IMG/VR virus record: IMGVR_UViG_3300024507_000435
Location: 1-60,592 of that record
Direction: 5' to 3' (one strand)
Origin: a virus
DNA: 60,592 bases
Each line of letters begins with the position of its first letter. Position 1 is the first letter of the stretch. Positions 60,220 to 60,414 of this stretch are shown in pieces. The notes below the pieces were generated by a model. That model ran no database searches. It saw nothing but the letters and a program-made list of their open reading frames with translations, and was not told the DNA's origin. The translations under genes were made by a program, and so were the position numbers.

Positions 60220-60414
60220 TTAACCAGTGTGCTATTACGCCAAAGAATCCATAGTAGAATTGCCGATCTATTTCTAGACTTTATGCAGCCAAGTATTAGA
60301 CATTAATATTCTACAAAGATTTTCTAATACCCACGATAATTTTTCAACCGTCTTGGCCGGAGCTACGATTCACTCTTTAAAGGATGGCTGCTTCTAAGCC
60401 AACCTCCTGGTTAA
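60220..60414 (-). ncRNA. 23S rRNA GTPase-associated-centre-like RNA with 130-nt insert
   Basis: The outer stem TTAACCAG/CTGGTTAA equals the base of 23S helix 42. The 5' part (60371-60414) contains TTGGCTTAGAAGCAGCCATC and TTTAAAGAG, i.e. helix 43 and the start of helix 44. The 3' part (60220-60240) contains GCGTAATAGC and CACTGG, i.e. the rest of helix 44 and the closing strand. With 130 nt (60241-60370) removed, the 56-nt core aligns without gaps to my memory of E. coli 23S about 1052-1107 with five differences. It lies 2-3 nt from tRNA-Ser genes on both sides, so RNase P and tRNA 3' processing would release it. Confidence 0.85.

Follow-up and report, generated by a model that had tools for sequence, protein, structure and literature searches.

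The window, by which we mean the whole stretch of DNA analyzed here (60,592 nt; positions 1 to 60,592 of virus record IMGVR_UViG_3300024507_000435), contains a minus-strand tRNA cluster in which a 195-nt element resembling part of the 23S rRNA GTPase-associated center (GAC) lies between two tRNA-Ser genes. Its length is set by a 7-bp closing stem of 60408-60414 with 60220-60226, and the coordinates given in the preliminary description of this DNA proved exact. Numbering follows E. coli 23S rRNA, and named bases, tertiary ones included, are given their customary roles unless a paper is cited. The features of the locus are:

60421-60506, minus strand: tRNA-Ser-like gene, its anticodon read by eye as UGA, lying 6 nt 5' of the element
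60220-60414, minus strand: whole element, GAC-mimic RNA plus inserted domain, 195 nt
60408-60414, minus strand: P1 5' strand TTAACCA, in place of the helix 42 base (E. coli 1048-1054), read from the sequence; P1 covaries in the 109 representatives described below
60381-60405, minus strand: helix 43 (H43) hairpin, E. coli 1057-1081; the A1067 equivalent is 60395
60376-60380, minus strand: UUAAA segment, 1082-1086, including the tertiary 1082-1086 pair, which covaries as UA/CG/AU
60372-60375, minus strand: GAGU, the 5' strand of helix 44 (H44), E. coli 1087-1090
60245-60371, minus strand: inserted domain, 127 nt, closed by GAAUC/GAUUC, with rRNA similarity at chance level
60227-60244, minus strand: UUUG linker, helix 44 hairpin GCGUAAUAGC and ACAC (1091-1104); the A1095 equivalent is 60236
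60220-60226, minus strand: P1 3' strand TGGTTAA, E. coli 1105-1111, read from the sequence
60128-60217, minus strand: tRNA-Ser(GCT), 2 nt 3' of the element

Read along the minus strand, the element begins with TTAACCA (P1), continues through GGAG GTTGGCTTAGAAGCAGCCATCC TTTAAAGAGT, the 127-nt insert GAATC...GATTC, TTTG and GCGTAATAGCACAC, and closes with P1' TGGTTAA. It had been described as containing the helix 42 base, H43, and H44 in order; H43 and both halves of H44 are there, but helix 42 is represented by its base alone, in the form of a phage-specific 7-bp stem, and H44 is split between E. coli 1090 and 1091 by a stem-based insert of 127 nt. The loop bases equivalent to A1067 and A1095 that had been singled out are present at the positions listed. 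ARAGORN missed the tRNA-Ser(UGA)-like gene at 60421-60506, which Rfam calls a tRNA-Sec (49 bits, gathering score 47), and a further tRNA at 55795-55880 was found by Rfam only. Elsewhere in the window, a 1061-aa protein at 46370-49555 (minus strand) combines a CarboxypepD_reg domain with a beta-barrel domain of the outer membrane type (PF25183, E 3.8e-131). Its resemblance to TonB receptors is unusual for a phage contig with a DNA polymerase, a DnaB-like helicase and NrdA/B.

When 503 nt were searched with the Rfam LSU_rRNA_bacteria model, model positions 1084-1153 matched the 5' half of the element (60352-60419, minus strand) at 31.6 bits and E 5.9e-8, which is below the gathering score of 50 and explains why a default Rfam scan is silent here. 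Joined over E. coli 1051-1108, the two halves are identical at 52/58 nt to the uninterrupted 23S copy in locus L084 and at 55/58 nt to that in locus L004; the preliminary description had given 51/56 for E. coli 23S. The 3' half, TTTGGCGTAATAGCACAC at 60227-60244, departs from 23S in reading GCACAC in place of GCTCAC. Nothing of the rest of 23S lies beside the element: the flanks in the window are tRNAs and phage genes, with no gathering-level rRNA match, and no gathering-level 23S flanks were seen at 15 further loci among the best 150 of 153 rows of an Rfam scan.

The element is widespread. A scan of viral contigs with the 5' half (scan 1) returned 88 loci. In 79 of them, an insert (43 to 334 nt) is followed by a 3' half that differs from TTTGGCGTAATAGCACAC at no more than 4 positions; TTTGGCGTAATAGCACAC itself lay outside the scan-1 pattern. 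The reverse scan with the 3' half (scan 2) gave at least 93 matches in loci additional to scan 1, and 82 of the 93 matches listed are joined by a 5' half that deviates at no more than 6 of 19 positions. Bacterial and archaeal genome contigs, scanned with the 3' half, yielded 45 matches: 17 are accompanied by a 5' half (at most 6 mismatches, within 800 nt), 27 resemble chance, and in an eighteenth case, L232, the 5' half is perfect but lies 1.85 kb upstream, with a 506-codon frame in between, an arrangement that makes this element look split by an insertion sequence (Propionibacterium MAG contig, 3184-5084, with the intervening frame on the minus strand). Because both halves recur in the same order, with the same linker and stems, in unrelated phages, chance is excluded. 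A plasmid search returned 531 records, the best 20 of which match the 5' half only (88.7-90.7%) and look like ordinary 23S.

The preliminary description had proposed looking in related phages; in all, the element could be fully parsed at no fewer than 159 loci, named isolates among them. These comprise at least 127 unique sequences, some loci being copies of one phage, and were reduced to 109 representatives by clustering on insert k-mers, not on phylogeny, so the shuffle counts given below are not probabilities. The window enters the 109 through its relative L016. Left out of the counts were 16 of the 88 scan-1 loci (seven cut off, seven one-nt-shorter variants, and L081 and L084, which are 23S or 23S-like) and 28 of the 93 scan-2 loci listed (truncated elements, variants in length or with a second insert, and others rejected by the parser). 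Some positions were fixed by the search patterns, namely 1059-1079 in scan 1, most of the 3' half in scan 2 and the genome scan, and GAGU 1087-1090 in the parser; conservation there is partly selected, since the scans or the parser required it, and each scan tests the other half. Among isolates, the element was read fully in Serratia phage BF, Cronobacter GAP32, Pectobacterium CBB (one nt shorter), Xanthomonas XacN1 and XaC1, Aeromonas 4_4572, and Pseudomonas pf16, UNO-G1W1, Astolliot and Milchi, and according to BLAST seven Erwinia phages and Xanthomonas XbC2 also carry its two halves.

Several loci depart from the common form. L182 has tandem elements, with another GAC-like copy placed after one 5' half and before a later 3' half. 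At L129 (6775 ff., reverse), a phage-type element carries a second hairpin insert and has closing-stem flanks like genuine helix 42 (GACAGCCAGG / CACTGGCCGAG), a form that is perhaps more ancestral. Phage contig L022 combines a tmRNA (98.3 bits), tRNAs and a one-nt-shorter GAC element in one locus (853-1296).

Identity to 23S over 1055-1104 has a median of 44/50 among the 109 representatives, and pairing is kept where sequence is not. The eight P1 pairs from 1047-1112 to 1054-1105 form in 76-100% of the representatives, and each shows 40-64 changes affecting both sides, so that P1 differs in sequence from phage to phage while its pairing persists. Six H43 pairs are kept at 95-100%, with covariation at 1057-1081 (AU or CG), 1058-1080 (paired in 108/109; TA 37, GC 37, AT 27, CG 4), 1062-1076 and 1064-1074 (CG or AU). 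H44 pairs are 99-100% kept and nearly invariant and therefore contribute hardly any covariation. The tertiary 1082-1086 pair is formed in 103/109 (TA 58, CG 30, AT 15), and at the base of the insert pairs +1, +2 and +3 form in 108, 106 and 99 of 108; the first three to four pairs of this stem covary, and from +5 inwards pairing is at chance level. A second count used 25 sequences, the window and 24 of the 109: 89.7% of cells were paired against 63.2% when shuffled and 32-52% when slid, and the covariation score was 0.663 against 0.162, while further pair types, a weak measure of covariation, reached the observed level in 19 of 500 shuffles. A covariance model built from these 25 sequences also matches, as expected, both 23S copies (L004 and L084). 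The GAC fold of the element is strongly supported by covariation, and its structure is under selection: P1, H43, the 1082-1086 pair and the insert base all covary across the representatives. Together with the LSU model match and the identity to two 23S copies, this bears out the original view of a phage-encoded L11/thiostrepton domain.

Energy-based folding says less. The minimum-energy fold of the window element alone forms P1, H43 and the H44 tip and lacks the insert base stem, its energy is modestly better than that of shuffles (z -1.97), and the inserts have a median folding z of -0.56 (101/109 folded). In a consensus fold of the window and three relatives, 1083-1090 pairs with the insert end and the linker, partly against the model; this alternative is disfavored by the linker UUU, which is almost constant even where 1086 varies together with 1082. 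Taken alone, thermodynamics offers weak and not decisive evidence, and it partly disagrees with the covariation model.

An accidental host 23S fragment, an rRNA intron or intervening sequence, or an assembly artifact would account for the 23S similarity, and some records do hold uninterrupted 23S (L004 and L084), while 3 of the 109 elements overlap an ORF of at least 150 codons. However, covariation of phage-specific stems contradicts this reading, as do features that are shared and derived: the UUUG linker (102/109 representatives; 40/47 where no search pattern fixed it) and base 1101, which is U in the Rfam 23S consensus and A in 109/109 representatives (47/47 where pattern-free). The same base is G in pf16 and UNO-G1W1, and 10 loci turned up when the 1101-G variant was searched for, three with a 5' half at no more than 3 mismatches, one of them apparently pf16's own record. 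Complete isolate genomes carry the element, and the window has no flanking rRNA. We consider an origin of this kind scarcely credible, and the intron or intervening sequence was rejected, there being no rRNA flanks in the window and P1 differing in sequence between phages.

At individual bases, U1060 is kept in 58/58, A1095 in 46/47 and A1098 in 47/47 elements where these positions were pattern-free, and A1085 is present in 109/109 representatives; position 1067 is A in 44/58 and not A in 14/58 where pattern-free. Of 154 two-half places found without requiring GAGU, 142 have it with A1088 at the usual place, and 10 of the 12 lacking GAGT at that spot have an extra stretch, self-complementary by eye, after 1077, beyond which the sequence continues. 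Because core pairs and tertiary bases are kept while 1067 and the outer stems drift, the element is best read as a uL11 ligand; such conservation (U1060 and A1098 invariant, 1067 variable) fits recognition by uL11 better than it fits a role in GTPase or thiostrepton binding. H43/H44 has been described as a 58-nt region that folds on its own and to which L11 binds (PMC4409310), tight binding of H43/H44 has been ascribed to the C-terminal domain of L11 (PMC3592554), and RelA binding to the ribosome is described as mediated by L11 (PMC9998046).

The reading we favor, in which our confidence is evenly balanced, is that of a phage RNA that is processed, acts in trans, adopts the fold of the L11-binding domain and captures the uL11 of the host. 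The element would be a small independent phage RNA, probably cut from the same transcript as the neighboring tRNAs, that folds as a stand-alone GAC of helices 43 and 44 closed by a phage-specific stem in place of helix 42, with an insert of variable length and sequence built into helix 44 that may be a payload. The RNA would bind host uL11, whose C-terminal domain recognizes exactly this RNA domain, and uL11 might be held off new or exchanging ribosomes or used as a handle. Steps that depend on uL11, including RelA activation and translational GTPase function, could be weakened as a result, perhaps to the benefit of the phage. The changed base 1101, the interrupted helix 44 and the weak support from folding energies count against this reading, and uL11 is not essential in E. 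coli, which makes a benefit from sequestering it less certain. More tentatively, and at somewhat less than even confidence, we suggest that this trans-acting, re-engineered ribosome domain competes for uL11 and presents a host-tuned helix 44 module to uL11 or the stalk base.

No uninterrupted helix 44 was encountered, every parsed element having its insert at 1090/1091. Insert lengths run from 25 to 365 nt, and their sequences fall into different classes, one of which (26 representatives) has a conserved ACCCC...GGUAAGG hairpin near its 3' end. Other rRNA pieces were sought in the inserts, and the best scores were at the level of mononucleotide-shuffled sequence, except in L182 with its second GAC copy. 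A 28-nt partial match (86%) to the window's insert occurs at 57012-57039 (plus strand), within a metallophosphoesterase ORF. The insert might hinder uL11. Alternatively, the GAC could be only a docking handle, through which uL11 (or else the stalk base or translation factors) would be recruited, with the variable, host-tuned insert as the effector. The strong conservation of the core beside such diverse inserts, and the covariation of their base stems, would suit this arrangement, but the inserts of the window and four isolate loci gave no Rfam match at E up to 1, and we rate it as unlikely.

The genomic setting bears on what the RNA could be. Within the representative loci, all 645 of 645 tRNAs are on the strand of the element, and at least one tRNA was found in the examined DNA at 78 of the 109. 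A tRNA lies within 12 nt of 36/109 elements, within 100 nt of 45/109 and within 500 nt of 59/109, compared with 5.7%, 22.9% and 36.3% for random positions drawn from the same tRNA-rich loci. In pf16 the element fills the gap between two tRNAs where no feature is annotated, and in UNO-G1W1 it again fills an inter-tRNA gap, the only annotation there being an opposite-strand hypothetical CDS. Proximity of 0-12 nt to a tRNA in a third of the cases is what might be seen if the element spaced the tRNAs in a transcript, or served their processing, and had no separate target; this would leave the retained 23S tertiary core unexplained, however, and 31/109 loci have no tRNA in the examined DNA, and we find such a role very improbable. 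In the phage tRNA-array locus L103, the element is accompanied by an Rfam cow-rumen-4 RNA at 189-254 (67.7 bits).

Position inside tRNA arrays would also suit a counter-defense decoy, that is, an RNA that baits a host nuclease, methyltransferase, toxin or antibiotic recognizing the ribosomal GAC, much as phage tRNAs are thought to evade tRNA-cutting defenses. We know of no phage-defense enzyme that targets H43/H44. A polynucleotide kinase/phosphatase (PNKP) is encoded near the tRNA and GAC cluster of the window (57881-58804, minus strand), and nosiheptide methyltransferase accepts the 29-nt H43 hairpin alone (PMC4409310). To bait an enzyme that reads the loop, a decoy could do without the complete tertiary core; this core is nevertheless retained, whereas 1067 varies in 14/58 where pattern-free. 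A decoy function strikes us as a rather poor prospect. Besides PNKP, a 730-aa kinase/ligase-like protein (assigned by eye) is encoded at L222 2522-4714, and in XacN1 (L237) an annotated 2'-5' RNA ligase is directly upstream of the element; a link of the element to RNA repair through these proteins is possible.

Downstream, 76 of the 109 elements are followed by an ORF of 40 codons or more whose start is no farther than 250 nt away, as might be expected of a cis-acting leader that senses a ribosomal protein and regulates the next gene. These 76 ORFs form no family, though, the largest clusters having 2 members, and the next gene is often a tRNA; with no shared downstream ORF, a leader RNA was rejected, and we see hardly any likelihood in it. 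Neighboring proteins were scanned as 110 sequences, made up of 107 of 172 neighbor ORFs and three hand-picked ones (L227, L222 and the window), of which the L222 and window proteins inflate the kinase/ligase counts. Matches among the 110 came to 2 at most for any Pfam family and to 3 at most for any PHROG, and a dedicated protein partner was rejected for want of a recurrent family. As there is neither a conserved downstream ORF nor a recurrent neighbor protein, the RNA itself is the likely product. On bacterial genome contig L227, a DUF2828-like protein (2070-3593) lies beside the element; one of the 110 sequences matched PF11443, and its assignment to this protein is by eye.

Comparison with known systems places this putative uL11-binding RNA apart from each of them. 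It shares with the 23S GAC its sequence, its H43/H44 pairs and tertiary U1060, A1085, A1088, A1095 and A1098, but unlike the GAC it is a free-standing gene, often in a tRNA array, with a variable stem for helix 42, an insert of 25-365 nt plus UUUG at 1090/1091, and A or G in place of U at 1101. Ribosomal-protein leaders (L1, L10, S15) mimic rRNA binding sites and, like the element, reproduce in a separate RNA a place where a ribosomal protein binds rRNA, whereas the element has no conserved downstream gene and often lies among tRNAs. No GAC/L11 mimic is known to us among such leaders, and to our knowledge OLE RNA has no GAC homology. T4 RNAs C and D, which the preliminary description had offered as comparable, are stable and also lie at a tRNA cluster, but they are not members of the family: the T4 region containing them matches neither the covariance model (E up to 1) nor the motif. 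In the window and 15 further loci, no Rfam 15 family matched the element at its curated score, and no ROOL or GOLLD match was found in those 15, both among the best 150 of 153 rows; below threshold, in the window and four isolate loci, the only matches were LSU models over elements and one F6 sRNA match (E 0.55) that touches the end of the XacN1 element (L237). ROOL has been described as a phage and prophage RNA often near tRNA islands and GOLLD as bound by ribosomes in pull-downs (PMC12286853); these are structured phage RNAs, and ROOL lies beside tRNAs as the element does, but both are far larger. The nearest idea in print that we found, in the same paper, is the hypothesis that OLE RNA sequesters the ribosomal protein RpsU through a ribosome-like pocket (PMC12286853); both RNAs are non-coding and suspected of holding a ribosomal protein, OLE being a different, larger bacterial RNA. 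The claim that no phage RNA of this type had been described stands insofar as we found none in the open-access literature, an earlier description elsewhere being possible; the RNA is not, however, peculiar to one phage, being widespread and present in named isolates. As far as can be told, a free-standing viral copy of a ribosomal functional center is a new kind of element.

In conclusion, these elements show that rRNA-like pieces under Rfam thresholds can hide conserved genes, and they offer natural variants of a well-studied RNA fold, with a covarying 1082-1086 pair, a changed base 1101 and an interrupted H44. The presence of the family in cultured phages makes the proposed function directly testable. 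If it is true, a viral RNA would be rewiring the ribosome's GTPase and stringent-response switch; the GAC is the site where elongation factors and RelA act, and mimicry of it by a phage RNA would represent a new kind of host takeover.
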